Of a DNA stretch of 64,000 nucleotides, positions 13,170-63,304 are shown piece by piece. Below the pieces are notes generated by a model. The model did not search any database. It saw nothing but the letters and a program-made list of their open reading frames with translations, and had not been told where the DNA came from. The stretch is from Spirochaetes bacterium GWB1_60_80 (GTDB taxonomy: Bacteria; Spirochaetota; Spirochaetia; Treponematales; UBA12059), in NCBI GenBank assembly GCA_001829185.1, contig MIAR01000046.1, positions 1 through 64,000 of the forward strand. The letters run 5' to 3'. How positions within the stretch are numbered: position 1 is the stretch's first letter; the number at the start of each line of letters is the position of its first letter. A program made the translations under genes and the position numbers.

Positions 13170-13198
13170 CGTGAATCTGAAATCCGTATATATATATG

Positions 13199-13236
13199 AA
13201 AAAGGCAAAAGGGCTGTTGACGCCCTTTTGCCTTTT
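13199..13236 (-). terminator. Rho-independent terminator downstream of flaA
   Basis: A perfect 15 bp stem (AAAAGGCAAAAGGGC at 13200-13214, complement at 13222-13236) with loop of 7. On the minus strand it ends in a T-rich run, as a terminator of the flaA transcript should. A second 9 bp hairpin (ACCGGAAGG/CCTTCCGGT, about 13253-13282) lies between it and the flaA stop. Confidence 0.8.
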
Positions 13237-13308
13237 CACAACCTAGCAAGCACCGGAAGGTCCCTGGGGTGCCTTCCGGTTTCGATTGGTCATAGACATG
13301 TAATGCGC

Positions 13309-14379
13309 TTACTCTTCAGTCGTCCACTCTTCACCGGTACGTGGTTCTTGCTTCTGGGCTTCCAGATGGCGGAGAACCTGAGCTGCGCCGAAACGCTCGC
13401 CTTCTACGCGCTGGCGATCGGTTTCGCGATCATTGATGATGCCCCAGATGGACTCGTCGTCGATATCGCGGACTGGATCAAGAACGGCCTTGTCGTACAG
13501 TATTTTGACGTCCTTGAAATAAGCCACGAAATCGCCACCCTCGTTGGCTGCGTCGCGGGTGATAAGGAAGCCGCCAAACCTGACAAAGGGATTACTGCGC
13601 GGGTACAAGGGGATAACGCGCAGTTCGCGATTGCGAACGTCATTGATGTACTGGGGGTTATCCCAGCGCAAGGTCCGCCAGCCGTCGAAGCTCAGGTAGC
13701 CCATGAACACGACGTTCTCGTTTCCATCCTGGTCAATCAGGACGGCATGGAGGCCGTGCGGGAAATTAAGGCCCCGAACACGGACGGCCACCGACTTTAG
13801 GACGCCGACGTTCTTTACAATGCCAAAGGCGGTCAGTAGGCTGCTTTCTTCATCGACAGCGCCTTCGAAACGAGTCAGCCCGGTAGCGGTGCTGCCTTCG
13901 GTCGGCTCAATAGTACCATCGTCGCCGACAGTGGCCAGGGGCTCAAAAGCCGGAATCTGGAAGGGCGGCTGGATGCGGGCCCAGGAATTGAAGCTGCCGA
14001 GCGGGAAACGGACGCGAACGCCCATGACGCTGCTGTTGGCGGCATAGGCTGGGCCGCTTTCGTTGACCGGAGCCGGGCGCACGTATGAAAGTGACTGATT
14101 GTCGTTACTCCTGGAAGAAGAAGCGAGGACAACATCCCAGTTCTCGAGAGCCAGCGAAACAGCCATCTGCGCTTTTTGTTCCGCAGTGTAGCCGCTTCCA
14201 GCCATATCCGCAAAGTTCATCATGGTAGCCCGATTTTCGCGGAAACCTTCCCCGGCCGGATTCTGGATGATGTCGGCAGCCAGCAGGGAAAAGTCGATGA
14301 GGACAGCCTCGTCAGCGAAGACCGCCGCCGAACCGATCAACATCAAAACGACTGCGACAAGAAACAAGTGCCTCTTCAT
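13309..14379 (-). CDS. flaA: Flagellar filament outer layer (sheath) protein FlaA
   Basis: A 356-residue secreted protein with a signal peptide cleaved after VFADEA-like residue ~22. It matches the spirochaete FlaA family: LIDFSLLAADI near the mature start, GVRVRFPLGSFNSWARIQPPFQIP in the middle (two parts: GVRVRFPLGS and FNSWARIQPPF), and VLDPVRDIDDESIWGI near the end. FlaA coats the FlaB core of periplasmic flagella. The ATG has SD AAAGGAG. It has its own strong promoter inside the preceding GerMN gene and its own terminator, so it can be made in large amounts apart from the sugar operon upstream. Confidence 0.93.
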   Translation of the reverse strand: MKRHLFLVAVVLMLIGSAAVFADEAVLIDFSLLAADIIQNPAGEGFRENRATMMNFADMAGSGYTAEQKAQMAVSLALENWDVVLASSSRSNDNQSLSYVRPAPVNESGPAYAANSSVMGVRVRFPLGSFNSWARIQPPFQIPAFEPLATVGDDGTIEPTEGSTATGLTRFEGAVDEESSLLTAFGIVKNVGVLKSVAVRVRGLNFPHGLHAVLIDQDGNENVVFMGYLSFDGWRTLRWDNPQYINDVRNRELRVIPLYPRSNPFVRFGGFLITRDAANEGGDFVAYFKDVKILYDKAVLDPVRDIDDESIWGIINDRETDRQRVEGERFGAAQVLRHLEAQKQEPRTGEEWTTEE

Positions 14380-14392
14380 TCAAGTGCTCCTT

Positions 14393-15016
14393 TCATAGTG
14401 CGCGTACATTCGTATCAGTATTTGTCTTGATTATAGTCAACCATACGCCTTTGTCAATTAAATTATCGAATTTTGCGTCAAGTATAGCAAGAGTTTCAAT
14501 ATAATCAGCTTCGTGGCCGTCGATGGTTATCACAAACCGATGATTCCGGAAAGTGGTTCGCAACACCCTTTCGAAAACCGCTATGATTTGTTTGGCAGGT
14601 ATAGTTGAGAAGCTTCTGATGCCCTCGGCATTGGCTTTGCCAAAGAGTAGATCGCTGGTCAAGTCGATATAGATAAGGTCGTCCCTACCCTGAATGATCC
14701 GGTATTTGACGGTTGGTTGAACCAAGGGAGAAAGGTTGTCAGCCTGCGGCCCCAGAATCAGTTCTTCAAGTACCAGGTCGATTTCCTCGGTGACCGTAAC
14801 CTGCCGGGCGGTCAGCCTAAGCTCGGGCCGCAGTATTTCCGTCCTCTGTACCGGAAACCAGAGGATGACCGGACGCTGTCGCCAAGTGGGGATCGATAAT
14901 AGGAGGCTGGCCAGACCGCCTAGCACCAGCACCAGCAGCCAAAAATGGCGTGGCTGGGCGACTCGGGCGGCTGTGGCGCGCAAAATTGACAGAACGTGGG
15001 CAAATTGTTGCTTCAT
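14393..15016 (-). CDS. GerMN-domain membrane protein
   Basis: A 207-residue protein with one N-terminal membrane helix (FWLLVLVLGGLASLLLSI, residues ~25-43) and a GerMN-type domain facing the periplasm: PVILWFPV, then EIDLVLEELILGP, YIDLTSDLLFG, and ERVLRTTFRNHRFVITIDGHEA. GerMN domains are found in spore germination and envelope proteins, often near amidases. Its ATG overlaps the stop of the amidase gene by four bases (ATGA), so the two are translationally coupled and probably act together in wall remodelling. Confidence 0.85.
   Translation of the reverse strand: MKQQFAHVLSILRATAARVAQPRHFWLLVLVLGGLASLLLSIPTWRQRPVILWFPVQRTEILRPELRLTARQVTVTEEIDLVLEELILGPQADNLSPLVQPTVKYRIIQGRDDLIYIDLTSDLLFGKANAEGIRSFSTIPAKQIIAVFERVLRTTFRNHRFVITIDGHEADYIETLAILDAKFDNLIDKGVWLTIIKTNTDTNVRAL
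14430..14457 (-). promoter_or_regulatory. Strong sigma-70 promoter of flaA, inside the GerMN gene
   Basis: On the minus strand a perfect TTGACA (14457-14452), 16-base spacer and perfect TATAAT (14435-14430) give a ~45-base leader before the flaA SD. It lies within the last codons of the GerMN gene. Confidence 0.85.
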
Positions 15017-16146
15017 GGTGTGGATGGGGTTCTCCGCTGTTCAAAATAGTCTACAAAACTCACCACACCATTATAGATACCTTTAGTCAATTTCTGCAAG
15101 TACGCTTCGGTTGACAATCGTTGCGCTTCGGCCTCATTGGTGACGAAACCGACCTCTACCAGCACCGATGGCATGCGGGCGTTGCGAACCACGAACCATT
15201 CCTCGGCCCGGACGCCGCGATTTGAGGTCTGGCCCCCGACTTGAGCGCTTAAGCCATCCTGTATGGCCCTGGCCAGGAAAATGCTTTCCGTAGTGTATTC
15301 TTCCTCCAGCATGGTATTGAGAATCGGCAACACATCCTGGCTGTGGCCTTCGGTCTTGCTGTCGTCGAGGACAGTCCGGCGATATTCCGGGTTCAAATAC
15401 CAGACTTCAAAACCATTGGCCCGGGCATTGAACGAAGCATTGGCGTGGATCGAAATGTAGATGATAGCCTCGTTGACGCCCAGTTCAAGGCCGTTGGCCA
15501 TCGAAACGCGGTCTTCAAGGCTCGGGAAGGTATCGCCGGTACGGGTTATCAGGATGGTTTTGTCAGGCCAAAGCTGGGTCAACTGTCTGTACAGCTCGAG
15601 GGCGATGGCCAGCGTTATATCTTTTTCCCTGGCTTGCCAGGCAGCGCTGCCGCTGCCGAATAGGCCGACCGCCCCCGGGTCGCGTCCGCCATGCCCCGGG
15701 TCGATGAGGATGACCGCCACCGAGGTCAAGGCTGTCCGCTCGGCGCGGCGGAGCGCGAACCATTCGCCCATGGCCTGCAAGGTGGCGCCAGGAGCCTGCA
15801 GCCGTCCATCCACCCAGCGGACCGGCTCCAGCCATGAAATGAGGCTGCCGCCGAACAGGAATAGGCCTTCTCCCAGCTTGAACCGGATCAGGTCGCCGCC
15901 AGACAGCAGCTGACCGATGCCCGTCAGCGGATCGAAGTTCAAAGCTGCTTGCCGCTCGGCCAGCAAGCCATCGAGGGGGTACAGGCTATCCGGCCGGTAG
16001 GTCGGTGATTGCGGCTCGTTGGCTGGCGCCGATGTGGGCGCCGGTGCTGCCGGCCCGCTCAGCGGCTGCCCGGTAAGCGGCAGCGACCAAGTCCCAAGCA
16101 GGACGACGAGTAGCAGCCGGCCGAAGCACAGGGGGCGTCGGTTCAT
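15013..16146 (-). CDS. N-acetylmuramoyl-L-alanine amidase (Amidase_3)
   Basis: A 377-residue exported zinc amidase that cuts the peptide from the glycan of peptidoglycan. It has a signal peptide (residues ~1-27), a Pro/Ala-rich linker, then the catalytic domain from about residue 140 with ILIDPGHGGRDPGAVG (first zinc His), the ISIHAN motif (second zinc His) and VLVEVGFVTN with the catalytic Glu. It is coupled to the GerMN gene downstream and overlaps the ATP-grasp gene upstream by four bases, so it belongs to the operon starting at 22721. Confidence 0.92.
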   Translation of the reverse strand: MNRRPLCFGRLLLVVLLGTWSLPLTGQPLSGPAAPAPTSAPANEPQSPTYRPDSLYPLDGLLAERQAALNFDPLTGIGQLLSGGDLIRFKLGEGLFLFGGSLISWLEPVRWVDGRLQAPGATLQAMGEWFALRRAERTALTSVAVILIDPGHGGRDPGAVGLFGSGSAAWQAREKDITLAIALELYRQLTQLWPDKTILITRTGDTFPSLEDRVSMANGLELGVNEAIIYISIHANASFNARANGFEVWYLNPEYRRTVLDDSKTEGHSQDVLPILNTMLEEEYTTESIFLARAIQDGLSAQVGGQTSNRGVRAEEWFVVRNARMPSVLVEVGFVTNEAEAQRLSTEAYLQKLTKGIYNGVVSFVDYFEQRRTPSTP

Positions 16147-17756
16147 CGGAGTCGATACTCCTGCTTGACCGAATCGACTACATAGGCGGCGGCCTGGTAG
16201 CCGGCCTGGAACAAGGCCTGCCAGAAACGCCGACCCAGCACCAGGTCGGCCTCGGTGCCCAGGCTGACCGCGGTGATAAGTCGGACGGCCTCCAGCGATT
16301 CAGCCAGGCTGCGGCCTTGCCAATCGGTACCAGCCTCGCCTTCCAGGTTGGCCAAGGGGGCAATGGCCAGTGTCGCGGCCGGCAGGTTTCGCCGGACGAA
16401 ATCAGGCATAGCCGCCACCAGGCCAAGGCGGAGCGCTGAAATATCCGGAAAGGCTTGCGGTGGCCAGGGATATTCGACACCGGGGACTGGTCCTTGGTTG
16501 TAGAGCGACAGGAAGCGGTCGGTTTCCGCGTCAGCCGGCTGCAACTGGATAAGAATAGAACGAGCCGCCGCCTCGGCCATGGCATCAGCGCCGTTTCGGC
16601 TGACGTCGACGGCCAGGACATTGCCGCATTTCTGGACATTGTTGCGCGGGAATACTACCCGATCGCCGGGATTGACGCGGCTAAAGACGTCTCGGACGCC
16701 TGGCAGGTTGGAGGCTTCCGTCAGCCGATGAAGCTTGGCGACGGTGCCGGGAATGGAAATGAAGGCCCGTTCGGCGCAGACCAAACCCAGGCTCTCGGCC
16801 GGAAAGCTGGGCGGCTGGCCGCAGGCGATGGCGATGGCGTCGTCGGCCGGGTTGATACCGCTGGCATAGGGATAGGTCCAGCCGGACATATACCCGCCGG
16901 ACAGGCGCGCGGCGATCTCGCCGATGACCGGGCCTTGGCGGGTATACTTGACATCGCCCTTAGCCGCGCCATTGGTAATGCCCAAGGCCTTTACGGCCCG
17001 CTCGAAAACGGCCAGCAGCTCCTGCTGTATTTCTGGTGCATAAGCACTAGGCATGGTATGGCCCATCTCGATGAAATATGGCGAAAACCGGATTAGCCGG
17101 TCAGCCAGGCCTCGCGGCACCAGGCGTCCATCGTGGACCAGGGCATCGATACTGAATTCCGGCCCGTCGACGTAATCTTCGACAATTACCCGCCCGCTGC
17201 GCGAATTGGCGGCGGCGTCGAGCCAAGCGGCCAGCAGTTCGCTGTCGCAGCCGACCAGTCGGCAGCCGCGTCCGCCCATGTTGTCGACTGGCTTGACAAC
17301 CAGTGGATAGACCGCAGGTTGCCCGGCGGCTAGCTTCTCGGTCGCCAGGCGCTCTTTGAGCTCCATCGGGTCAGACTCTAGGGTGCCGGTCGCGAAACAG
17401 GGTACTGGCACCCCGGCCTGCTGTAGGCATTGGCGCATCAGAGCCTTGTCGGAAGCTCGGCGGGCGGCCTCCACCGGAAGGCCGGGCAACCGCAAGGCGG
17501 CAGCGATGCTGGCCACGGCTACCGAGAAGTCGGTACCGGCGGTAAAGACACCGGCCAGGTTCGGGATACTGGCGGCGGCGGCGATCAGCCCGTCGATATC
17601 CTTCAGGTCGACCCGCACAAAGCGGTCGGCCTGGCCGGCCAACGGCGCCGCCGGATTGCCGTCAGCCACCACTACCTGGTAGCCACGCTGTCGGGCGGTG
17701 CGTATGGCCGGACCCTGCATCACGCCAGCCCCCAATATGAAGATCGCTCGTTCCAT
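16143..17756 (-). CDS. ATP-grasp carboxylate ligase-like protein
   Basis: A 537-residue protein. Residues ~1-100 form a pre-ATP-grasp Rossmann half (AIFILGAGVMQGPAIRTARQRGY). The ATP-grasp core follows: ASDKALMRQCLQQAGVPVP, VVKPVDNMGGRGC (the phosphate-binding Lys and Gly-rich loop) and GEIAARLSGGYMSGW. It ends with a C-terminal region of ~130 residues unlike PurK or CarB. Such enzymes join a carboxylate to an amine using ATP. Its place between sugar-nucleotide genes and an amidase suggests it adds an amino-acid-like group to a sugar or wall precursor, but the substrate cannot be read from sequence. Confidence 0.75.
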   Translation of the reverse strand: MERAIFILGAGVMQGPAIRTARQRGYQVVVADGNPAAPLAGQADRFVRVDLKDIDGLIAAAASIPNLAGVFTAGTDFSVAVASIAAALRLPGLPVEAARRASDKALMRQCLQQAGVPVPCFATGTLESDPMELKERLATEKLAAGQPAVYPLVVKPVDNMGGRGCRLVGCDSELLAAWLDAAANSRSGRVIVEDYVDGPEFSIDALVHDGRLVPRGLADRLIRFSPYFIEMGHTMPSAYAPEIQQELLAVFERAVKALGITNGAAKGDVKYTRQGPVIGEIAARLSGGYMSGWTYPYASGINPADDAIAIACGQPPSFPAESLGLVCAERAFISIPGTVAKLHRLTEASNLPGVRDVFSRVNPGDRVVFPRNNVQKCGNVLAVDVSRNGADAMAEAAARSILIQLQPADAETDRFLSLYNQGPVPGVEYPWPPQAFPDISALRLGLVAAMPDFVRRNLPAATLAIAPLANLEGEAGTDWQGRSLAESLEAVRLITAVSLGTEADLVLGRRFWQALFQAGYQAAAYVVDSVKQEYRLR

Positions 17757-17764
17757 GATATTCC

Positions 17765-19579
17765 TTACTGGCCGGCCGCCGACGGTTTGGCCTGGTCGTC
17801 CTTAACCGCATAACATTCGAAGGTATCGCCCAGGCCAAAAATCCGACTGAGCAGCATGATCAATTTGTAACGCAGGCTGGCTGGCCGATCGGGCACCCCG
17901 AAAAAGCGCTCTGGATGATGTCCGGTTACCACCACTTTTGTAACCTTAAAACCGAAGCGTGGCAATACCCGGTGGGCCACCTGGGGGCTCCAGATGGTGT
18001 AGTGGTCGTCCGGCGACTTTTCCAGAAAGGTTGCCAGGCTGCGCCGGCCAGAGACGCCGCGGAAGGATGGTGTCGAGAAGGCGAAGATGCCGCCCGGGCG
18101 CAGCAGGTGATGGACGCGCCGCAAGACCCGCGCCAGTTCGTCGAAATGTTCGATAACGTACCACATGGCCAGGCAGTCGAGCTGACGGGGATAGAGGCCG
18201 TCAGCCGCCGGAGCGGCGAAGTCGGCCACGATGGCCGGGACATGGCAGCTAGTACGGACGTATTCCACGGCCTGGACGGAAACGTCGGTGCCGACGGCAT
18301 CCCAGTCCCGGCTCTGCGCTTCCAGCACGAAGGCGCCGTAGGCGCAGCCGATGTCGAGCACCGAGGCACCGCGTCGCGGCTTATCCAGCAAACCTTCGAT
18401 AATGGCTAAACGGCGGCGGGCCATGTGGCGCAGGTTAGGCAGGTCTTCAAGATAGGTTTTGCCGTATTGTTTTTTGTAGTCTTCAAAAAAATAGGCTGAG
18501 TCGGTATAGGGATCCGGCCGGGCTTGGAAACTGGTTAGGTGTAGCAATCCGCAGCGTCGACAGGCGAAATAGGATTTTCGCGCCGCTCGGTAGCGGCTAT
18601 TGATATCCGATGCGCCGCAGGCCGGGCAGGCGCCGGCGTGGTGCGGCCGCAGCTTCGAGAAGAAGGCGGCGGCATCAAGCTTGTCTTTCGGTAACAGCCG
18701 ACGGTTAAGGGCCAGAATTGCCTCTGGCTGGGCAAAGGCTGCGAGCAAGGCGGCGCTATCCGGTTTCCCGATGCCAAGACTGTGAAAGCCGGCTTGCCTG
18801 GCCAGCTGTTCGTGTAGGCGGCTCGGATTGAGCAAGAGGACGCCACAACCAGCCCAGGCGGCCTCGTAGGCCGTCAGGCCGAAGTGGGTGACGACCAAGT
18901 CAAAGCGGTACAAGCGTTCGCGCAGATCCGGCACCGGCCCCAGCACCTGGACAGCGGGCCATTCCAGCGGGCTGTCAGCGGCCAGCGGCCCACGCAGCAG
19001 CGTCAGGCTGGCGCCAGGAGCTAGCTTGAGGCGAAAGAAAGCCTCCAGGAAGCGCCGTCCCAGTCCGGCCTGGTCCTCGCCACCGAAACTGATCAGGATA
19101 GAGTGAAAACTGGCCGGTGGCTGGTCGCGTCGTTTAGACGGCAGGGGCAGTAGCCCCGGTGCCTGGCAATTCGGCAAACCCAGGCGTTTTGCTATTCTGG
19201 CCGTGACTGGCAAGAGGTCAAGCACATAGGGCGCCACCCGGCGGGCTGGACCACCCTCGTCGATTACCACGACCGTGCCGAAGGGCGACCAACGCCGATA
19301 GTCTTCCATTGAGGTAGCTAGCTTGTCCAGGACGATCAGGCGGAAGCGCTGGCCAGGCTCCAGATGGTCCATCAGGCGCAGCCGTTCGGCTTCCAGCGGA
19401 TAAGCCAGCCGGATGGCATCGATGTCCCACAGTGGGTTATTGGCGGCGGCCGGCGGAATGAACAGGCTGACCGCGCCGCTTCCGGCCGCCGACTGGATTG
19501 TCCTAGCCAGCGCGAAGCAGCGCGTCAGGTGCCCGCTGCCGTTGCCGCGCCGCAGCGCCGGGACGAATAGTATGCTCAC
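17765..19579 (-). CDS. Fusion: PseG/SpsG-like nucleotide-sugar hydrolase + zinc-ribbon SAM methyltransferase
   Basis: A 604-residue two-domain protein. Residues ~1-305 resemble PseG/SpsG-type GT-B enzymes: NGSGHLTRCFALA (the catalytic-His G-x-G-H motif), VVVIDEGGPARR, ILISFGGEDQAG and VVTHFGLTAYEAAWAGCG. Residues ~320-345 are a four-Cys zinc ribbon (CPACGA...CRRCGL), followed by a class I methyltransferase with VLDIGCAYGAFVLEA and WYVIEHFDE. PseG removes UDP in pseudaminic-acid synthesis; the ribbon-methyltransferase pairing is typical of sugar C- or O-methylases. It overlaps the SpsF-like gene by four bases. Confidence 0.78.
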   Translation of the reverse strand: MSILFVPALRRGNGSGHLTRCFALARTIQSAAGSGAVSLFIPPAAANNPLWDIDAIRLAYPLEAERLRLMDHLEPGQRFRLIVLDKLATSMEDYRRWSPFGTVVVIDEGGPARRVAPYVLDLLPVTARIAKRLGLPNCQAPGLLPLPSKRRDQPPASFHSILISFGGEDQAGLGRRFLEAFFRLKLAPGASLTLLRGPLAADSPLEWPAVQVLGPVPDLRERLYRFDLVVTHFGLTAYEAAWAGCGVLLLNPSRLHEQLARQAGFHSLGIGKPDSAALLAAFAQPEAILALNRRLLPKDKLDAAAFFSKLRPHHAGACPACGASDINSRYRAARKSYFACRRCGLLHLTSFQARPDPYTDSAYFFEDYKKQYGKTYLEDLPNLRHMARRRLAIIEGLLDKPRRGASVLDIGCAYGAFVLEAQSRDWDAVGTDVSVQAVEYVRTSCHVPAIVADFAAPAADGLYPRQLDCLAMWYVIEHFDELARVLRRVHHLLRPGGIFAFSTPSFRGVSGRRSLATFLEKSPDDHYTIWSPQVAHRVLPRFGFKVTKVVVTGHHPERFFGVPDRPASLRYKLIMLLSRIFGLGDTFECYAVKDDQAKPSAAGQ

Positions 19580-20262
19580 GAGCCGCTCCCCAATCCGGCC
19601 TTCAGCCAGGCCAGGATGCTGGCGTCGGTTGGCTGCTCGCCCAAGGCCGCCACCAGTTGTTGGGCCAGCGCGTAATCGGCTGCGGTATCGATAGTCAGGC
19701 GCGAGGCCGGCAGCTGCCAGGCCGCCGGGCAGGCTGGCCGCTCAATCTGGAACAAGTCTGGGTGTTGATAAAGGTAGGGACAGACGTGTTCGCGGTCGTA
19801 CAGGCTGGCCGCGCTTCGGTTGGCTACCAGCAAGGCGGCGGCCTTGACCACCTCGACACCCATGCCCAGCGGCAGGCCTTGATAACCGGCGTAATCCAGC
19901 CCCAAAGGCCGGGCATAGTCCAGCAAACGGGTGGCCAGTTCGGCCGAGACGAAGGGATTGTCGCCAGTGGCTCGGACGATGTACGTCGGCCTCCAAGTCT
20001 CGATGGCGCCGCAAAAACGGCCCAGTACATCGTCCTTGGGGCCGACATGGAGACGGAAGCCGGCAGCAGTGGCGATGGCGGCCAGTTCCGGCTGGCTGGC
20101 CGGGTCGCAGGCCAGGATGTAATGGTCAGCCGGGATATGGCGCAGCCGTTCCAGGACAGCGCTGGCTACGGTGCCGAAGCCAAGCGGTAAGAGAGCCTTG
20201 CGGGGTAGCCGGCTGGAATCAAGCCGCATCTGGACGATGACGGCAAGCGACAACTCACTCAT
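19576..20262 (-). CDS. SpsF-like cytidylyltransferase
   Basis: A 228-residue nucleotidyltransferase of the CMP-KDO/CMP-NeuAc synthetase superfamily. The N-terminal VIVQMRLDSSRLPRKAL is the P-loop-like nucleotide-binding motif, with ATGDNPFVSAEL carrying the metal-binding Asp. It resembles SpsF of Bacillus spore-coat sugar synthesis, which often accompanies SpsG- or PseG-like enzymes in nonulosonic-acid-like pathways. It probably activates a sugar acid with CTP. It overlaps both neighbours in the operon. Confidence 0.8.
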   Translation of the reverse strand: MSELSLAVIVQMRLDSSRLPRKALLPLGFGTVASAVLERLRHIPADHYILACDPASQPELAAIATAAGFRLHVGPKDDVLGRFCGAIETWRPTYIVRATGDNPFVSAELATRLLDYARPLGLDYAGYQGLPLGMGVEVVKAAALLVANRSAASLYDREHVCPYLYQHPDLFQIERPACPAAWQLPASRLTIDTAADYALAQQLVAALGEQPTDASILAWLKAGLGSGS

Positions 20263-21226
20263 CAGGCGTCACCGGGTCCCACAGGTCGACCAGTCGGGTG
20301 ATGTCTTGCTTGAAGCGATAGGCGTTGGTATCCACCCAACGGCGGGCGGCGCGGAAAAATCTCCAGGATTGGAGCGGGCCAAGCCCGGACTGCAGCAGGT
20401 ACATCAGGAAGCGCGAGGCCGGCAGATGCGCCATGTCGACCCGGTATTGCGGCGCGATGTTCTTCAGCCAGACCCGGCCGTAATCCACCGATACGGTGGT
20501 GTCCTCAACCGGCGACGACCCGGTATACAGCAGCTTGAGCGCCTGGACATGGCAGATCGATTCGCCCCACAGCCAGGCGCGCAGGCCGAAATCCAGCCGT
20601 TGCCAGCAAGGCTGCCGGATGGTGAAATCGAAGCCACCTAGACGGATGAATTTTTCGCGGTGGTAGATGCCGCACCAATCAAACGGATACAGGGTCTTTT
20701 CATGGTCTTTTTTCGGAATCAGGGCAACCGTCTTGATGACGCGCCGGGAAACGGCCGGATTGATATTGGTCGGGAGCGAGTTGTTGCCGGCATCGGCCAG
20801 GCAGGGCACCAGGCAGGCCATATCCAGCTCGCCGACCTTGTCGAAAAAGCGGCTGGACAGGGTGCTGGTCGCCAGTTTCATGTCGTTCCAGATGACAAAG
20901 ACAAAAGGCGTACAGGCCTCGCGCATGCCGACGTTGATGTAATCGCCGATAGTCAGTTCTTGCTTGAACATGATGAAGCGGACGTGCGGAAAGCGGCCGG
21001 CCAGGCTCTCGATCTCGGCCGACTCCGGCGGCAGCTCGATGGAGATGATCGAGTCAAAGCCGATATGCGTCAGGTCTTGAAAGAGGCTGGCGCGATACAG
21101 CCGCGGTCCGCGATTGAGAACCAGTACTGAGACCGGGAATTTATCTTTACAGTTGCGCTGATGGAGGCCGCCCAACACGGTATAGGTCGGCTTGTTCGCG
21201 TCATGCGTTAAAGGTATGGTATTCAT
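20255..21226 (-). CDS. Glycosyltransferase-like protein (GT-A, family 2 type)
   Basis: A 323-residue protein with a GT-A pattern: FPVSVLVLNRGPRLYRASL, then EQLTIGDYINVGMREAC-like segment (TIGDYINVGMREA), VFVIWNDMKL (a DxD-like position) and a later YHREKFIRLGGFD typical of family 2 transferases. No signal or membrane helix. The ATG at 21226 follows GGGAG by four bases and is preferred over GTG 21229. It overlaps the end of the spiro-SPASM gene by about 26 bases, so translation is tightly coupled. The acceptor is unknown; flagellin or a surface glycan is plausible. Confidence 0.65.
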   Translation of the reverse strand: MNTIPLTHDANKPTYTVLGGLHQRNCKDKFPVSVLVLNRGPRLYRASLFQDLTHIGFDSIISIELPPESAEIESLAGRFPHVRFIMFKQELTIGDYINVGMREACTPFVFVIWNDMKLATSTLSSRFFDKVGELDMACLVPCLADAGNNSLPTNINPAVSRRVIKTVALIPKKDHEKTLYPFDWCGIYHREKFIRLGGFDFTIRQPCWQRLDFGLRAWLWGESICHVQALKLLYTGSSPVEDTTVSVDYGRVWLKNIAPQYRVDMAHLPASRFLMYLLQSGLGPLQSWRFFRAARRWVDTNAYRFKQDITRLVDLWDPVTPDE

Positions 21227-22721
21227 CACACTCCCTGCACGGTTCCGGATAAGCCTGGCGGCAATGCCGCTCGTACCAGGCCGCTTGGCGCTGCCAGGCC
21301 GTCAGGAAGCCATCTTCGAAAACATTGGCCAGAATCGTCGGGTAGCCCAGGCTGTCGCCCTGCCGCGCTAAACAGTGTTTGCAGGGTGGGACGCCGCCGT
21401 CCAGCAAGATGGCCATGTCGCGTGCCAGATGGCGGCACGGCAGGCGTTCCAGCGGCGCCAGATCGGCTACCTGGCGGTCTGGCAGCGTCCCGGCGAACGA
21501 ATCGTATTTCTGGATGATGACCGTGTCGCTCAACTTAATCCAGCTGCGGTAGAAATTTTCCAGGTTCTCTTCGTTTTCATGCATCCGGACGGCCTGGTAA
21601 TGAACCTGGCCGGGAAAGGCTTGCCCCAGGCGGGCGGCGAAGGCTTGGGCTTCGGCGAATCCGTCGCCGCGCAAGGCTTGGTACAAGGCTGGTTCGGTCG
21701 AATCCAGACTGACGATCCAGTGCAGACGCTTTGGCCAGCGTTGCTGCAGCGACCGAACCAGTTCCTCGGGCCAGCCGAGGCCGGCGGTTTCCACCAGCAG
21801 CGTGGTATGCGGATGGCTCAGCACCGCTTCGGCGATGGCGCCGAAATCCGGATGGCGGACCGGGTCGCCCCACAGCGATACGTCGACCACCAGATCGTCG
21901 CAGACCGCCACGGCGTCGGCCAACAGGCTGGTAAAACGTCCGACCGGCATGTGTCCATCCAACTGGCGTGGGTCGCCCACCATCGCTGGATAGGGACAGT
22001 AGCTGCAGGATTGCGGGCAAGCGCTACTGATTTGAACCCACAGAAAGGCCGGCAAGGTGCGCAACAGCTCGGGATGCTGGGGCAACCAGGCCACCAGCTG
22101 GTCGGCGCCAGTCAACTTTTGGCGCCAGAGCCCTTCCACCGTCTGCAGATTGCGTTTGTTGTCGCAGGTGGCGGCGAAGCGCCAGGCGCGCACGTCAAGC
22201 GGAGACAGTTCCGTTTCGATGTCGTAGGAATTGATGTCCTTCTGGAGGACGGCGAATAGGCTGTCCCGGTCCACCGGCAAGGGATTACGCTCGGCCAAGA
22301 GAACCAAGCTGGGCAGGATGGTTGGACGGAGTATTTCCGGCGCGAAGCCGGCCGGGTAGCCGTCGGCAAAGGTGTATTCCGCCCGGTACTTGCGGTGGAT
22401 GGCCAGCAGGCGTTCGGTAAGCGCCGGATCGTAGAGCGGCGAATCGGCCTGCAGGTACAGGAGCGCATCCGCCGAAGGCTGGTGAGCCGCGAAATCGGCA
22501 CAGGCCTGTAGGATGGACTGCATCGACCAAGCAGCCTGGCGCCGGACCGCAAGACCGTCTGGGTTCAGTGCCTCGTCGCTGGTCAGTACCAGTACCCCCG
22601 GTTGACCGGCCAACTCCCGGGCGAAACGACAGACCAAGCCGAAGGCGCACTCCCCGTCAAAACGGGGCAACAGGGCATACGGCGACAATGTGACAGCGTT
22701 GATGACGATGAGTGTTTCCAT
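21201..22721 (-). CDS. Spiro-SPASM radical SAM protein with N-terminal NTP-transferase-like domain
   Basis: A 506-residue protein. Residues ~1-200 resemble a nucleotidyltransferase fold (TLIVINAVTLSP, DALLYLQADSPLYDPALTERLL). The central radical SAM domain has CxxxCxxC as CPQSCSYC at about residue 237 and binds a 4Fe-4S cluster and SAM. The C-terminus is a SPASM-type region with CRHLARDMAILLDGGVPPCKHC (split motif: CRHLAR and PPCKHC) and a final CRQAYPEPCRECDEY. This matches the spirochaete-specific spiro-SPASM family as I know it, whose function is not established. It is the first gene of the sugar operon, behind a sigma-28-like promoter. Confidence 0.82.
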   Translation of the reverse strand: METLIVINAVTLSPYALLPRFDGECAFGLVCRFARELAGQPGVLVLTSDEALNPDGLAVRRQAAWSMQSILQACADFAAHQPSADALLYLQADSPLYDPALTERLLAIHRKYRAEYTFADGYPAGFAPEILRPTILPSLVLLAERNPLPVDRDSLFAVLQKDINSYDIETELSPLDVRAWRFAATCDNKRNLQTVEGLWRQKLTGADQLVAWLPQHPELLRTLPAFLWVQISSACPQSCSYCPYPAMVGDPRQLDGHMPVGRFTSLLADAVAVCDDLVVDVSLWGDPVRHPDFGAIAEAVLSHPHTTLLVETAGLGWPEELVRSLQQRWPKRLHWIVSLDSTEPALYQALRGDGFAEAQAFAARLGQAFPGQVHYQAVRMHENEENLENFYRSWIKLSDTVIIQKYDSFAGTLPDRQVADLAPLERLPCRHLARDMAILLDGGVPPCKHCLARQGDSLGYPTILANVFEDGFLTAWQRQAAWYERHCRQAYPEPCRECDEYHTFNA

Positions 22722-22732
22722 AGCATTCCAGT

Positions 22733-22759
22733 ATATCGGCCGGTCGGCTTAAAGCCTTA
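22733..22759 (-). promoter_or_regulatory. Sigma-28 (FliA)-type promoter of the spiro-SPASM operon
   Basis: On the minus strand TAAG (22759-22756), exactly 15 bases, then GCCGATAT (22740-22733), against the consensus TAAA-N15-GCCGATAA. The ATG at 22721 lies 11 bases downstream. Ten of twelve consensus positions match with ideal spacing. Confidence 0.65.
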
Positions 22760-22792
22760 GCGCCAGCTCAGTATACCACCCATAGAAGCTGC

Positions 22793-22823
22793 TTGACAAT
22801 CTGGCTACAACCTGTTGTATAGT
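22793..22823 (+). promoter_or_regulatory. nrdJ promoter with overlapping palindrome
   Basis: A perfect TTGACA (22793-22798) is followed by TATAGT (22818-22823, 19-base spacer). Between them, and overlapping the -10, is the palindrome TACAAC-CT-GTTGTA (22806-22819), which could be an operator. It does not match the NrdR box. A ~60-base leader with SD GGGAGG follows. Confidence 0.55.
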
Positions 22824-33237: not shown

Positions 33238-33275
33238 ATGGCAAGGATGCCATGGTGCCAAGACTCAAGGAGGAA
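33238..33275 (+). promoter_or_regulatory. flaB1 leader hairpin with GGA loop next to the SD
   Basis: ATGGCA-AGGA-TGCCAT (33238-33253) is a perfect hairpin exposing AGGA in its loop. It is followed 15 bases later by the SD AAGGAGG (33268-33274). Two GGA motifs, one in a loop and one in the SD, is the usual layout of CsrA-repressed flagellin leaders such as hag of Bacillus. Confidence 0.55.
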
Positions 33276-33278
33276 GTC

Positions 33279-34139
33279 ATGATCATTAATCACAATCTTA
33301 GCGCTATGTATGCCAACCGCCAGCTCGGCGTCAACGGTACCCACAACGACCGCAACATGGAACGCCTCTCGTCCGGTATGCGCATTAACCGTGCCGGCGA
33401 CGATGCTTCCGGCTTGGCCGTATCCGAGAAGATGCGTTCCCAGATCCGCGGCTTGAACCAGGCTTCTACCAACGCCTCGAACGGTATTTCATTCATCCAG
33501 ACCACCGAAGGTTACCTCCAGGGAACGCAGGACATTCTGCAGCGCATTCGCGAGCTGTCGGTTCAGGCCTCCAACGGTATCTACACCGCTGAAGACCGTA
33601 TGCAGATCCAGGTGGAAGTTTCCCAGCTGGTCGACGAGATCGACCGCATCGCCAGCCATGCTCAGTTCAACGGTATGAACCTGATGACCGGTCGTTTTGC
33701 GCGCGAAACCGGCGAGAACCTGGTAACGGCCTCGATGTGGCTGCATATCGGTGCCAATATGGATCAGCGCGAACAAGTTTTCATCGGAACCATGACTGCC
33801 GGCGCCTTGTCCGTCAGAAATGTATCTAGCAATGAAGTGCTGTCGCTGTCCACTCCCGAGAATGCCAACCGCTCGATCGGTGTCCTCGACGAAGCCCTCA
33901 AGCGCGTCAATAAGCAGCGTGCCGACCTCGGCGCCTACCAGAACCGCCTCGAATATGCCATCAATGGCATCGATATCGGCGCGGAGAACCTGCAAGCGGC
34001 CGAAAGTCGCATTCGCGATACCGATATGGCCTCGGAAATGGTCGACTACACCAAGAATCGCATCCTGATTCAGGCCTCGACCGCTATGTTGGCCCAGGCC
34101 AACCAGAAGACGCAATCGGTCTTGCAGTTGCTGCAGTAA
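33279..34139 (+). CDS. flaB1: Flagellin core protein FlaB (copy 1)
   Basis: A 286-residue periplasmic-flagellum core flagellin. The conserved N-terminal D0/D1 ([37 protein letters not shown]) and C-terminal D1/D0 ([34 protein letters not shown]) are complete; the short middle is typical of FlaB, which lacks outer D2/D3 domains. It is exported by the flagellar secretion system, so it has no signal peptide. The frame starts upstream at 33252 but AAGGAGG fixes ATG 33279. A second flaB follows 259 bases later. It differs from copy 2 in the middle ([17 protein letters not shown]). Confidence 0.95.
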
Positions 34140-34398: not shown

Positions 34399-35247
34399 AT
34401 GATTATCAATCACAACATGAGCGCCATGTATTCCAATCGAACTTTGGGCGTTACCCAGGGCGAACTTAACAAGAACATGGAACGGCTGTCTTCCGGCATG
34501 CGCATCAATCGCGCCGGCGACGATGCCTCCGGTTTGGCCGTTTCGGAGAAACTCCGCAGCCAGATCCGCGGCCTCAACCAAGCCCAGAAGAACATCGAGA
34601 ACGGTGTATCCTTCATCCAGACTACGGAAGGTTTCCTCCAGGGAACGCAGGATATCCTGCACCGCCTGCGTGAATTGTCCGTCCAGTCGGCCAACGGCGT
34701 TTATACCGCCGAAGATCGCATGCAGATCCAGGTTGAGGTTTCCCAGTTGGTCGACGAGATCAACCGGATTGCCAGCCATGCCCAGTTCAATGGAATGAAC
34801 ATCCTGACCGGACGTTTTGCCTCTGAAGGCAATCAGGTCATGCAGTTGCAGGTCGGCGCCAACATGGACCAGAACGAGCGTATTTTTGTCGGTACTATGA
34901 CCGCCCAGGCCCTCGGCTTGCAGGGTGCGCAGGGAACCAACGAGAATATCTCCATCTCCACGCCGGAAAGTGCCAACCTGGCTATCGGCAATCTTGACGC
35001 CGCCTTGAAACAGGTTTCCAAGCAGCGCGCTGACCTGGGTGCCTACCAGAATCGTTTTGAATCGGCATCCAAGAGTGTGGCTATCGCTTCCGAGAACCTA
35101 CAGGCTGCCGAAAGCCGCATCCGCGACACCGACATGGCATCGGAAATGGTCAACTTTGTGAAGAACAACATCCTGTCCCAGGCTGGCGGAGCTATGTTGG
35201 CCCAGGCCAATACTCGTTCCCAGTCTGTCATGCAGCTGTTGGGCTGA
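34399..35247 (+). CDS. flaB2: Flagellin core protein FlaB (copy 2)
   Basis: A 282-residue FlaB closely related to copy 1 (same D0/D1 motifs, ending SVMQLLG). The start ATG 34399 follows AAGGAGGGTCAT. The 258-base gap from flaB1 has no clear promoter, so it may be read from the flaB1 promoter, with the GGA-loop hairpin setting its translation. A strong terminator follows. Treponemes usually have several FlaB proteins in one filament, so this is a normal paralogue pair. Confidence 0.95.
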
Positions 35248-35795: not shown

Positions 35796-37796
35796 ATGTC
35801 GGATATTAGTATACCTGGTTCAAACAGCAATGCCGATATCCAGCGGATGATCGAGCAGCTCATGGAAATCGAGCGCGCTCCCCGAGTCAGGGCTCAGGAG
35901 CGGGTCGATGACTTACTCGGTCAAAAAAGCGCCTGGCAAGACTTGAACCGCCGCATGATATCCCTGCGCGAGGCTTCCAAGCAACTATTCTCCTTCCAAA
36001 ACCCTTTCAACACCCGCGTCGCCACCTCTTCTGACGAGTCGGCCCTGACGGCTACCGCCAGCCGCGAGGCGGCCGAAGAAACCATTGATTTTACGGTCAA
36101 ACAGTTGGCTCTGGCCGACCGCTTCATGAGCGCCCCACTATCGGAAGCCTATCAGGTTCCCGCCGGCCATTACAGCTTCGCGGTCGGTGAGGAGCAGCTG
36201 GTCTTCGATTATCGCGGCGGCAGTCTGCGTGATTTCAGCGATTCAATCAACCGCCGCAATAGCGGGCTTATCCGGGCTCAAGTTGTGCCGGTTACCAGCA
36301 CGGAGCGAATCCTGGTTATAGAAGCCTTGCGCACCGGCTCCGAGGCCCGGCTGGGTTTTGCCGACGCGGCTGAAAGCCTGGCCTTGGCCGCCGGGTTGAT
36401 CGAAGCGGCTAGCGCCAGTCGCCAGGACTTGGCTGCCAATCAACCGGTGGCCTTTAGCCGCCCGGTTGACCCCGCCTTGACCCTGTACCAGGATGGTGCC
36501 TTGCAGGTTAAGGCCGGCGCGGAAGCCGCCATACGCGTAGCGGCAGCGGTTCCAAGCGCCAACCTGATGCTGGAGCTGGAAATACTTGTCCAAGAGCGGC
36601 CCGCCGCCCCCAGCTCGAGCGCGCCGCCGGGACCAGGCATTCCAGCCACCGGCAGCGTCACCTATGAAGACATAACCATCCAGAGCGCGCCTTCGTCGGC
36701 CATCTTGCCGGATTGGACACCTCCTCTGCCGCCACCCCGTCGCCAGGACAACCAGATACTCTACGCCCTGGATGGCAATGGACGCTCGGTTGCCCTACCG
36801 GAAACCCGACCTAGCGCGGAGTACCAAACCATCCAGGTGCCGCTAGCCCTGTTTCTGGACAATTTCGCTGGCTTGGGTATCCGCAATAACAACACCCACC
36901 ATGATGTCTCGATCCGCTCCGTCCGGGTCTATGATCCGACCGAAACCAGCGGCTTTCGACCGCTCAATGCCGCCAGCACCGCCCGTGATGCCATCGTGGT
37001 CATGGAGGGCATCGAAGTAACCCGGCCGACCAACAGTATTGATGACCTGGTTCCCGGTGTCACCTTGAATCTGCACGTCAGCAGCGATAAACCAGTCGAG
37101 TTGACCATCGAACCGGATCGTGAGACCGTCAAGGAAGCGATCATCGGTCTGGTTGGCACCTACAACCGAATCATGGCCGAAATAAATGTCCTGAGCCGCA
37201 ACGAGGACAGCGTGGTTGATGAGTTAAGCTACCTGACCGAGGACGAAGAAGCCACCTACCGGGAACGCTTGGGCATGTTTCAAGGCGACAGCACGCTCAG
37301 CCAGATGCGCGGCAGTATGCAACGCATCATGATGAACAACTACGCCACGCGCGATGGCCAGTCCGTCCTGGCAAACTTTGGCATCTCGACCAACTCCCAA
37401 ACCGGCGGCGGCTTCGATGCTTCCAGGATGCGTGGTTACCTGGAAATCAACGAAGACCAGCTGATGGAAGCGCTGAACAGTAATTTCAACCTGGTGCGCG
37501 ACGTTTTCGGTCGGGACAGCGACAATGACCTGATCATCGATTCCGGCGTGGCCTTTATGCTGGATTCCTTAATTAAACCTTATGTCGAAACCGGCGGGAT
37601 CATGACCTTGCGGACCGGCACCATTGATAGCATGATTACCAGGGAGCGAGCGACTATTACCAGCCTCGATGTTTCTTTGGCGCGCAAGGAAGCGGAACTC
37701 AAGCGACGCTACGGGCTCATGGAGAGCGCCCTCAACCAGATGGAGTCTTCGTCCAGCGCCTGGGATAATTTCTCCAACCAGCAAGGAAATGATTGA
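35796..37796 (+). CDS. fliD: Flagellar filament cap protein FliD
   Basis: A 666-residue cap protein that guides flagellin polymerisation. The N-terminal FliD_N domain (IQRMIEQLMEIERAPRVRAQERVDDL) [motif quoted in part: MIEQLMEIERAPR] and C-terminal FliD_C region (coiled-coil end ITSLDVSLARKEAELKRRY) are present. The central ~300 residues are treponeme-like and long, with a proline-rich loop (PPLPPPRR). Length fits spirochaete FliD. It is in an operon with flaG and the following chaperone-like gene. Confidence 0.92.
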   Translation: MSDISIPGSNSNADIQRMIEQLMEIERAPRVRAQERVDDLLGQKSAWQDLNRRMISLREASKQLFSFQNPFNTRVATSSDESALTATASREAAEETIDFTVKQLALADRFMSAPLSEAYQVPAGHYSFAVGEEQLVFDYRGGSLRDFSDSINRRNSGLIRAQVVPVTSTERILVIEALRTGSEARLGFADAAESLALAAGLIEAASASRQDLAANQPVAFSRPVDPALTLYQDGALQVKAGAEAAIRVAAAVPSANLMLELEILVQERPAAPSSSAPPGPGIPATGSVTYEDITIQSAPSSAILPDWTPPLPPPRRQDNQILYALDGNGRSVALPETRPSAEYQTIQVPLALFLDNFAGLGIRNNNTHHDVSIRSVRVYDPTETSGFRPLNAASTARDAIVVMEGIEVTRPTNSIDDLVPGVTLNLHVSSDKPVELTIEPDRETVKEAIIGLVGTYNRIMAEINVLSRNEDSVVDELSYLTEDEEATYRERLGMFQGDSTLSQMRGSMQRIMMNNYATRDGQSVLANFGISTNSQTGGGFDASRMRGYLEINEDQLMEALNSNFNLVRDVFGRDSDNDLIIDSGVAFMLDSLIKPYVETGGIMTLRTGTIDSMITRERATITSLDVSLARKEAELKRRYGLMESALNQMESSSSAWDNFSNQQGND

Positions 37797-53706: not shown

Positions 53707-55326
53707 GTGAATCCCGAAAAGCCCCTGCCCGTCGATACCGGCAGGGGCTTTTCTGTCAATTATCGGCAGCGCTGGCTCTATTCCCGCCATGATCCAACCA
53801 GCCTGGCACTGTTGAATTGCCAGGCCGCGCCAATACACGAAGATACCCTCTACTTGGTTTGCTCACCGTGCCTCTGCTATGGCCTGACCGCGTTGGCGCA
53901 GCGCTTACCGGCCGGTTCCGCCATCGTTACCATAGAAACAGATGAACAATTGATGCGCCTGAGCCTGGAAACCAGCCAGGATTGGCGCGATAGCTATCCG
54001 ACTATTCATTTCCTGCGCAGCGTCGACCCGACGGCCATCATCAATCACGTAGATAGCCTTAGTAGTTTCAAGCGCATCATACCGGTTTCCATCTCGGCCG
54101 GCCGACAGTTGGACGAAGAAACCTACGATCGTATCGAAAAGGACTTAGCCCTCCACCTGGCCACCCGGACCCGCAACCGCATCGCCAGCGTGCGGATGGG
54201 GCGCTTGTGGCTCAAGAATATCTTTGCCAACCTCGGCGGCCTGGACTGGTCTCGGGTCAGTGATCCGCCGCGCGATTCGCGGCCGGTGCTAGTGGCCGGC
54301 GCCGGGCCATCGCTGCAGGCCAGCTTGCCCTTTATCCGGGAAAATAGAGCCGGCCTGCATGTTATGGCCTGCGATACGGCTATCGGCTGCCTGGTCCAGG
54401 CCGGCATTATGCCCGATTCGCTGGTCTGCCTGGAAGGGCAGATCCATAATATCCACGATTTCCTGCCCTTAAATCGCCGCCCGGTGCACGCGTTTGTCGA
54501 TCTGTCGGCCCATCCGGCCAGCTTCCACACCCTGGGTGGGCCATGTACCGTGCTGCTCAGCCGCTGGACGGAGAATAGCCTGATCGGACGCCTGACGGAC
54601 GGTGGCCTGCCGATCTGGCCCGTGCCGGCCCTCGGCTCGGTTGGCGTGTTGGCCATCCATCTAGCCGGCCGGTTTCTAGCGGGCGATATTTATATAACCG
54701 GTCTTGATTTTGCCTTTCCGCCTGGCCTGACCCACTGCCCGGGCAGCCCGGTCAGCTATTTTGAGAAAGCCCGCGAGAGCCGCCTGGATCGGCAGCGTTA
54801 TTCTTGGCGGAACAACTGGCGCCAGGATACCTTCTGTGCCGGCAGGGGATTGCGGAGTACGCCGGTACTGGAAATGTATGCCGCTAGTGCCCGTGAATTG
54901 CTGACGGACTTACAGACCGGTGAGCGGCCACGCCGCCTATTTGACCTCCGGGCCTCGAGAGGCCTGGACCTCGGCTTGAACCTCGGCCAGGACGTTCCCG
55001 CCCCCAGTCATGAGGCACTGAAGTGCCCTGTTCAGGACAGCGGTGTTACCCCCGAGGCCGGTGGGGCCGGGCTTGAGGCGGCCGCCTTGGCCCGCTTCCT
55101 GGTGGCGCAGGAAGCGGACCGTATCGACCAGCTGCGGCGGATTCTACAAGGCGAAGCCCCGGCGGCGGCCTTGCCCGGCTTGCTACTGGAACTCGATTAC
55201 TTGTATAGCCATTTCCCGGACGCGGAGCGCGTTGGCGGCCTGCACCTGGACGCGCTGCGGCGGTTGGCGCTGGAAGCCCGCTACTGGCTGGGCCGACTGG
55301 ATTGGGCCGGCCGGTCAACTACCTGA
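53707..55326 (+). CDS. Maf-like DUF115 glycosyltransferase (copy 1)
   Basis: A 539-residue protein of the Maf/DUF115 group. The core motif VLVAGAGPSLQASLPFIREN is followed by VMACDTAIGCLVQAGIMPDSLVCLEGQ (in parts) and a GSVGVLAIHLAGRFLAGDIYITGLDFAF region. Maf proteins are linked to transfer of nonulosonic acids onto flagellin in other bacteria. The GTG at 53707 has a weak SD, and its first codons contain the terminator hairpin of the previous gene. It is one of three such genes in the window. Confidence 0.82.
   Translation: MNPEKPLPVDTGRGFSVNYRQRWLYSRHDPTSLALLNCQAAPIHEDTLYLVCSPCLCYGLTALAQRLPAGSAIVTIETDEQLMRLSLETSQDWRDSYPTIHFLRSVDPTAIINHVDSLSSFKRIIPVSISAGRQLDEETYDRIEKDLALHLATRTRNRIASVRMGRLWLKNIFANLGGLDWSRVSDPPRDSRPVLVAGAGPSLQASLPFIRENRAGLHVMACDTAIGCLVQAGIMPDSLVCLEGQIHNIHDFLPLNRRPVHAFVDLSAHPASFHTLGGPCTVLLSRWTENSLIGRLTDGGLPIWPVPALGSVGVLAIHLAGRFLAGDIYITGLDFAFPPGLTHCPGSPVSYFEKARESRLDRQRYSWRNNWRQDTFCAGRGLRSTPVLEMYAASARELLTDLQTGERPRRLFDLRASRGLDLGLNLGQDVPAPSHEALKCPVQDSGVTPEAGGAGLEAAALARFLVAQEADRIDQLRRILQGEAPAAALPGLLLELDYLYSHFPDAERVGGLHLDALRRLALEARYWLGRLDWAGRSTT
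53716..53753 (+). terminator. Terminator hairpin inside the first codons of the Maf-like gene
   Basis: GAAAAGCCCCTGCC (53716-53729) and its complement (53740-53753) form a perfect 14 bp stem followed by TTTTCTGTC. It looks like the intrinsic terminator of the PpiC-like gene but lies within the reading frame of the next gene. Confidence 0.65.
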
Positions 55327-61777: not shown

Positions 61778-63304
61778 ATGACCGACAGCGCGCGAGCCAG
61801 ACAGCCATGTTTTCATTCCAAGTATGCGCCCTTGAAGGAAGCTGAGCGCTTCGTGGACGCTTCATTGCAGAACAAGAAGCCGGGGACGGTGCTGCTGCTC
61901 GGACCTGGCGAAAATTATATAACAACCGTGCTTGCGGCGCGTTATCCGTGGGCGGCCATCTACTCGATCCATCCGGATGGCCAATTCTGCAAACCAGGGC
62001 TGGATCAGGCCACGGCCTGGTGGCCCCAAGCCGGCTTGACCCTGCGCAATTTTCTGCGGCGTTGCCTGTTCAACGAACAAGCCTCGGCCGGTGTAGCGGT
62101 GCTGGAATGGGAACCGGTGATGGCGACCTACCCCCAGATGGCGGCCCAGATTCGAAATGAAGTCACCAAGTCTTTGGCCAGCGCCGCCGCCGACCGGGCC
62201 ACCGTTACCTACTGGGCGGCCTCCTGGCTCAAGAACTGCCTCCATTTTGCCCGTCGACTCCGCCAGGCCACCAGCCTGAGCCAGCAATCCGGTGGCATAA
62301 TCCTGGCGGCGGCCGGACCCGGCCTCAATGACTGCCTGCCAGCGATTCGACGCAGCCGTGATCAGGCCACCGTCTGGGCTTTGTCGTCAGCGGTGCCAGC
62401 CTTGCTGACGGCTGGAATCCGGCCGGATTTCGTCATTTCGACCGATCCAGGCTATTGGAGCGGAGTTCATCTGCAGAGTAGCCGGCAACAAGGCCTACTG
62501 GTGGGCTTGCCCCCCAGTGCCTATGCCGGAACCGGCTTACTGGATTCTGGTCGACCGATCGTCCCGCTCGATACTGGTTTGCTGTTCGAGAAAACCGTCT
62601 TGCAACAACTGGGCATTACGGCCGTGCCGGCGATTGCCTTCGGTACCGCCGCCGGTACGGCGCTGAATCTAGCCTTGACCGCAAGTACCGGGCCGATTGC
62701 GGTCTGTGGCCTGGACTTTGCCGCCTATCAGACCAGGACTCACGCCAAGCCTTATGCCTTCGATAACCTGCACTTGGAACACGCCTCCAGGCTCCACCCT
62801 GGCCAAGCCAGCCTTTATGGCGAAACTATCGAACGTTATCCTGAGAAAGCTGGATCGTGGCGTTTTTCACGCGCCTTCTCGGCGTATGCCAACGAGTTGA
62901 CCATTGCACCATCCGATCTAGGGCGCGTATTCCGGTTCAGCCGTTCGCCAGTTACCAGCGCCGGCATGGCCAGTTTTCCGGTTTGCCACTTTGAAAACCT
63001 CGACTGGCCAGAAAACAGCCCACCGGAATCACCGGAAATCAAGTCGGTCAGTGGTGGAGCCGATAAAGTCGTCGGCATACTGGACGCCTTGGGTCGCCAA
63101 GCCGGGCTAGCCATCGATCAGGCCCTGGTATCTGGCAAGGCCTTTGCCTTCGATGATGCGCTCGTCCTGAAGGCCTTAGGCGGCGCCGCTGTCGCCGCTC
63201 CGCTGGCCCTCGCGGCCAGGGGACAATTGACCAGCCAGACGGCTTTGCAGGCGCGGGAAGCCATCCGGCAAGCGCTGGAAAAGTGGAGCGAACCGTGCCG
63301 TTAG
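61778..63304 (+). CDS. Maf-like DUF115 glycosyltransferase (copy 2)
   Basis: A 508-residue DUF115 protein. N-terminal SKYAPLKEAERFVDASL and VLLLGPGENYITTVLAARYP precede the core ILAAAGPGLNDCLPAIRRSRDQATVWALSSAVPALLTAGIRPDFVISTDPG (in parts) and VCGLDFAAYQ. This is the same fold and order as copy 1 at 53707, but the sequences have diverged. It follows the frameshifted gene by 23 bases and overlaps the next Maf-like gene by 10 bases, so these are an operon. Confidence 0.82.
   Translation: MTDSARARQPCFHSKYAPLKEAERFVDASLQNKKPGTVLLLGPGENYITTVLAARYPWAAIYSIHPDGQFCKPGLDQATAWWPQAGLTLRNFLRRCLFNEQASAGVAVLEWEPVMATYPQMAAQIRNEVTKSLASAAADRATVTYWAASWLKNCLHFARRLRQATSLSQQSGGIILAAAGPGLNDCLPAIRRSRDQATVWALSSAVPALLTAGIRPDFVISTDPGYWSGVHLQSSRQQGLLVGLPPSAYAGTGLLDSGRPIVPLDTGLLFEKTVLQQLGITAVPAIAFGTAAGTALNLALTASTGPIAVCGLDFAAYQTRTHAKPYAFDNLHLEHASRLHPGQASLYGETIERYPEKAGSWRFSRAFSAYANELTIAPSDLGRVFRFSRSPVTSAGMASFPVCHFENLDWPENSPPESPEIKSVSGGADKVVGILDALGRQAGLAIDQALVSGKAFAFDDALVLKALGGAAVAAPLALAARGQLTSQTALQAREAIRQALEKWSEPCR

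Follow-up and report, generated by a model that had tools for sequence, protein, structure and literature searches.

Conserved sigma-28-type promoter element before the spiro-SPASM gene of spirochaetes and a putative late-flagellar sugar-modification cassette

Promoters of the sigma-28 type are used for late flagellar genes, and the glycans of spirochaete filaments are reportedly important for assembly and motility. The closest mapped example is the sigma-28 promoter of flaB2 in Treponema denticola, described in PMC9481697 as TTAA and CCGATAA with a transcript start 124 nt before the ATG. Its two-part sequence and spacing are like those of the element described here before the gene for spiro-SPASM; however, flaB2 encodes a flagellin behind a 124-nt leader, whereas spiro-SPASM is an enzyme gene with a predicted nearly leaderless transcript. 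The same report places P_flaA of T. denticola several kb upstream of flaA, before a VOC-type gene and pgk. The sigma-70 unit concerned, TDE1716-TDE1712, carries an amidase gene, a GerMN-like gene and flaA in the order found here, although its first genes encode the VOC-type protein and phosphoglycerate kinase, and the spiro-SPASM cassette is not part of it.

Flagellar glycosylation genes under a sigma factor of the sigma-28 type have a precedent in Clostridioides difficile, in which a sigD mutant has these genes down 11- to 50-fold alongside the late flagellar genes (PMC3865298). The genes involved are different, and no sigma-D promoter of its own was found before that cluster, whereas the present element adjoins the first gene of its cassette, with conservation throughout the class. 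In Leptospira, FlaB1 glycans are situated at the core-sheath interface (PMC13144727).

The locus studied here lies in the window, that is, the whole stretch of 64,000 nucleotides that was analysed. The explanation that we favour, to which we would give a probability of about 0.68 as a whole, is that the element is a genuine sigma-28 promoter. From it FliA (sigma-28) would start an almost leaderless mRNA for spiro-SPASM, a glycosyltransferase, a cytidylyltransferase and a PseG-like/methyltransferase protein, with read-through into the genes for an ATP-grasp protein, an amidase, a GerMN-like protein and flaA. The cassette enzymes would join the late flagellar regulon with a flaB and flgN-flgK, and they would make an unusual CMP-activated sugar and attach it to the flagellar filament, probably to FlaB, flaA itself being transcribed mainly from its own conserved sigma-70 promoter. 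A class-wide sigma-28 element before such a compact set of enzymes would give the spiro-SPASM family a concrete, testable role and predicts the timing of its expression. Moreover, a conserved flagellar promoter before little-studied sugar-handling genes ties this gene set to the flagellum.

The promoter element and its conservation

The features upstream of spiro-SPASM, all on the minus strand, are as follows.

22770..22799 (-), sigma-70-like site TTGTCA-N18-TATACT, upstream of the sigma-28 element (10/12, extended -10)
22756..22759 (-), putative sigma-28-type promoter -35 element TAAG (read from the sequence; positioned -35 block in 88 aligned orthologues)
22733..22740 (-), putative sigma-28-type -10 element GCCGATAT (read from the sequence; NCGATA at the equivalent place in 88/99 orthologous loci)
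22722..22732 (-), 11-nt gap between the -10 element and the spiro-SPASM ATG (22721), with a predicted transcript start at ~22724-22726

The coordinates, the spacing and the 11-base distance to the spiro-SPASM start given in the preliminary description all agreed with a second reading of the minus strand from 22759 to 22733, in which a 15-nt spacer (22755-22741, minus strand) separates TAAG from GCCGATAT. The site has the GCCGATAA-like -10, the TAAA-like -35 and the spacer of about 15 nt of a sigma-28 promoter; it agrees with the sigma-28 form at 11/12 core positions and differs from it only at the -35 G and the last T. Taken alone, the string is close to what chance would give and is weak evidence. 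Its chance expectation in the 64,000-nt window is 0.06, and the 3.6-Mb genome has nine matches, the same number as a backward-read control. The stricter TAAA-N14..16-GCCGATAW gave four matches in the genome against eight in the control, two of the four preceding flaB and flgN-flgK. Since these genome-wide counts show no enrichment, motif frequency was left out of the evidence, and it is position together with conservation across orthologues that raises the element above chance.

Conservation was examined computationally in 131 locus sequences, some of them overlapping copies, which came from other genomes of the phylum and 80 public genome contigs; relatives of the window genome and Treponema predominate in the set. 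Dereplication of the start regions left 99, the alignment of which rests on predicted start codons. NCGATA ends 8-15 nt 5' of the start codon in 88 of these 99 loci, while mononucleotide shuffles of the start regions gave a mean of 0.96 and a maximum of 5, and this comparison rules out a chance match. The motif claimed for this locus was thus recovered upstream of orthologous operons in the scan of relatives. At the equivalent place before the other genes of the operon NCGATA is practically confined to a single case (glycosyltransferase 0/70, cytidylyltransferase 0/70, PseG-like 0/65, ATP-grasp 1/59, flaA 0/44). This conservation is the decisive evidence for the element.

When the 88 loci are aligned on NCGATA, a second block is found about 20 nt upstream, reading T (75%), T/A (90%), A/T, A, G, with an information content from 0.84 down to 0.16 bits against ~0.03 at most other upstream positions. 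The block is sharply placed in the orthologous loci (spacer 14-16): matches of at least 3/4 to TAAA/TAAG at a spacer of 15 or 16 occur in 56/88 loci, other spacer pairs giving 4-17. Close relatives have CTAAG or CTAAC, others TTAA or TTTA. A sigma-28 reading of the element is well supported. Among the 11/99 loci without NCGATA in place some can be attributed to start-codon errors or to longer leaders: at L058 the GTG start comes after GCCGATAAAGGGGCG, and at L029, L105, L121 and L143 the -10 sits ~44-60 nt upstream of the start. At L068 and L069, whose spiro-SPASM genes belong to other classes of the phylum, the element was not seen.

The strict search of the window genome found TAAA-N15-GCCGATAA about 200 nt upstream of a flaB gene and TAAA-N15-GCCGATAT before flgN-flgK, and the flaB genes of relatives are also preceded by a sigma-28-type element. 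In addition, a T. denticola-like genome, recognised by its exact matches to two primers of PMC9481697, has TTAA-N15-TCCGATAA 140 nt upstream of flaB2. The unusually fixed distance of 8-15 nt to the start codon could also suit a non-promoter role of GCCGATA, for instance as a translation signal. This is very improbable, as the -35 block stands at sigma-28 spacing, a few orthologues carry the -10 ~44-60 nt upstream, and both flaB and flgN have this two-part sequence before them, which equals the sigma-28 promoter mapped in T. denticola.

The window genome encodes FliA (294 bits, cut-off 189.6). Because the mapped flaB2 start, together with the T. denticola-like sequence, places initiation ~9 nt after the -10, the leader of the spiro-SPASM mRNA would measure ~3-5 nt in the window and roughly 0-6 nt for most orthologues. 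In 29/88 loci (e.g. L052 and L078) the gap from the -10 to the start codon contains an SD-like string. Such strings would be largely lost from a leaderless transcript and are unexplained unless there is a second, longer transcript, which may exist. Such a transcript would fit a different account, in which the operon is transcribed mainly from TTGTCA-N18-TATACT (22799-22770), GCCGATA contributing little at this locus, or transcription comes from both promoters. The sigma-70-like site has 10/12 matches and an extended -10, and the nearest relative (L074) has TTGTCA-N18-TATATA at equal distance. However, sigma-70 sites are not enriched upstream of the orthologues (mean 8.0 vs 7.8 in shuffles), so that it is the sigma-28 element, and not a sigma-70 promoter, that shows conservation; we consider this account improbable.

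The gene run and the promoter of flaA

The sigma-28 promoter that we favour would be followed by these features, again on the minus strand.

21201..22721 (-), spiro-SPASM, 506 aa, with a predicted cytidylyltransferase-like N-terminal domain and a radical-SAM/SPASM-like part (TIGR04321 496 bits; model, structural matches)
20255..21229 (-), GT-A-fold protein, putative glycosyltransferase, 324 aa (model pLDDT 91.2; no Pfam match)
19576..20262 (-), cytidylyltransferase-family protein, called SpsF-like earlier (PF02348, CTP_transf_3, 95.6 bits)
17765..19579 (-), PseG-like N-terminal part fused to a methyltransferase (TIGR03590 weak, E 6.9e-5; PF13489 69.2 bits)
16143..17756 (-), ATP-grasp ligase (PF18603, PF13535, PF02655)
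15013..16146 (-), N-acetylmuramoyl-L-alanine amidase family protein, Amidase_3 (PF01520 156.9 bits)
14393..15016 (-), GerMN-like protein, weak, Germane (PF10646 20.2 bits, below cut-off)
14430..14457 (-), flaA sigma-70 promoter TTGACA-N16-TATAAT, 12/12, inside the 3' end of the GerMN-like gene
13309..14379 (-), flaA, flagellar filament outer layer protein (PF04620 231.2 bits)
13195..13242 (-), intrinsic terminator 3' of flaA (-27.5 kcal/mol, z -7.6, then a T run)

The genes named in the preliminary description are all present, the PseG match of the fusion gene being weak (E 7e-5, far below the cut-off). The ATP-grasp, Amidase_3 and GerMN-like genes between the PseG-like gene and flaA were absent from it. 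In the computational comparison the order spiro-SPASM, glycosyltransferase, cytidylyltransferase, PseG-like/methyltransferase, ATP-grasp, amidase, GerMN-like, flaA recurs in many families. At L053, L054 and L058 only the first four genes stand together, without amidase and ATP-grasp genes nearby in the stretch examined.

That the operon ends at flaA was borne out, as the gene run stops there and is followed by the strong terminator. The use of flaA as an argument for the filament has to be given up: its place at the operon end does not prove a filament role, since the gene carries a conserved sigma-70 promoter of its own. The sequence TTGACA-N16-TATAAT begins 78 nt upstream of flaA, and computational comparison found a sigma-70 site of at least 10/12 at 60-91 nt before flaA in 58/62 loci, random segments of the same operon rarely exceeding 9. 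So sigma-28 would serve the cassette, flaA having a sigma-70 supply of its own.

Some 184 kb separates the cassette from flaA in the T. denticola-like genome, and the sigma-28 element stays with the cassette. A flaA-proximal TTGACA-N16-TATACT is present in this genome, of which the available part of PMC9481697 makes no mention. The counterparts of TDE1716 and TDE1715 look in translation like a VOC/glyoxalase-type protein and phosphoglycerate kinase, so that P_flaA, as published, would precede a housekeeping-type unit. The conserved promoter close to flaA bears on the interpretation of flaA transcription in T. denticola.

The enzymes and their probable target

The spiro-SPASM protein matches NCBIfam TIGR04321 over its full length with 496 bits (cut-off 250), and a search of the available literature found no published function for spiro-SPASM/TIGR04321. 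Its structure model (pLDDT 94.9) has an N-terminal domain matching a cytidylyltransferase-like structure (6oew, Z 20.3, 216 residues) and a C-terminal part matching SuiB (Z 22.8) and BtrN (Z 21.5), the latter an enzyme with an aminocyclitol substrate. The models make it a cytidylyltransferase-like domain fused to a radical-SAM/SPASM-like part. The radical-SAM motif CX3CX2C is present in the window protein (C235, C239, C242) and is missing in 31/131 orthologues, such as L053 (T. denticola-like), L055, L058 (small Treponema-like), L065 and L126. These are apparent pseudo-radical-SAM members, and with this loss the family as a whole cannot function by radical chemistry. The sigma-28 elements at L053 and L058 are retained despite it, and the C-terminal cysteines 429, 447, 495 and 498 are found in all 131/131 sequences.

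The cassette glycosyltransferase is most like the polypeptide GalNAc-transferases (GT27) in fold (Z 20.6, rmsd 3.5 over 265 residues; next families 17.2 and 15.7), although the identity is 8-10% and the similarity is one of fold only. It has no match in Pfam, PHROGs or PDB sequence profiles, nor a sequence-profile match to polypeptide GalNAc-transferase structures. PseG proper was rejected for the fourth gene, which with 22.6 bits to TIGR03590 against a cut-off of 153.55 (E 6.9e-5) is a distant relative only. One NeuB/PseI-family synthase is found in the window genome, below cut-off. Elsewhere in the window two PF01973 proteins are encoded (53707-55326 and 61778-63304, both plus strand), the second also having a weak PseD match (E 5.6e-5). 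This family includes Maf-type flagellin-modifying proteins, and these two could be the flagellin glycosyltransferases instead of the cassette enzyme.

Among 296 spirochaete genomes searched computationally, 228 have TIGR04321 over the cut-off. All holders tested for flagellin have it (91/91), as nearly all holders tested for FlaA have FlaA. The 46 genomes without a TIGR04321 match comprise 30 small genomes of a family (f6) that genome size and gene content suggest to be Borreliaceae and in which flagellin and FlaA are present, 13 flagellin-less genomes and 3 incomplete assemblies; two more flagellin-less genomes have weak matches only, and none of the flagellin-less genomes found has spiro-SPASM over the cut-off. 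FliA is over its cut-off in 16/16 holders tested, in 0/6 of the Borreliaceae-like family f6 and in 0/12 of family f12. Since the flagellated Borreliaceae-like genomes do without the gene, spiro-SPASM is not needed for flagella as such, and since independent losses are few, the co-occurrence with flagellin and FliA is supportive and not decisive. The proposed link between cassette and filament keeps its basis in the restriction of the gene to flagellated genomes and in the FliA of every holder tested, although it loses the flaA argument, and the modification itself we infer. In family f9, three genomes (G149, G238, G266) have FliA well over the cut-off without flagellin, FlaA or spiro-SPASM, and appear to have kept a sigma-28 factor without a filament.

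The sigma-28 promoter could also be real and the cassette act elsewhere than on the filament, perhaps on a sugar linked to the envelope or to peptidoglycan and required as flagella pass the periplasm. The amidase and ATP-grasp genes of the same run, the flagellated Borreliaceae-like genomes that manage without the cassette and the two Maf-type proteins that could modify flagellin would all be in keeping with this. Such a target is nevertheless unlikely, given that the four core genes stand together without amidase or ATP-grasp genes nearby at L053, L054 and L058, that the glycosyltransferase resembles protein O-glycosyltransferases, and that spiro-SPASM over the cut-off was absent from every flagellin-less genome found.

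Filament glycosylation is the likeliest role of the cassette because of the protein models, the glycans known from FlaB and the C. difficile precedent. The cytidylyltransferase and PseG-like members and a glycosyltransferase fold nearest to protein O-glycosyltransferases count for the explanation that we favour as a whole; the missing genome-wide enrichment, L068 and L069 without the element, the Borreliaceae-like genomes without the gene, the small number of losses behind the distribution, the SD-like strings in 29/88 loci and the two PF01973 proteins count against it. More tentatively, the cassette may represent a conserved spirochaete system of late-flagellar filament decoration, combining a cytidylyltransferase-SPASM fusion often lacking the radical-SAM cluster, a GalNAc-transferase-like protein O-glycosyltransferase and a practically leaderless, conserved sigma-28 transcript; we would hold this specific combination to be possible rather than probable.

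Two flaB genes stand in a row with fliD on the plus strand, ~10 kb from the cassette (33252-34139, 34399-35247 and 35796-37796). No strict TAAA-N14..16-CCGATA site occurs anywhere in the window, and hence none precedes these two flaB genes or the two PF01973 genes. At L002, positions 1501-1527 (G000:C21:53551-53577), TAAG-N16-GCCGATA stands shortly 5' of an ORF without a Pfam match, and this ORF is a possible further member of the regulon.
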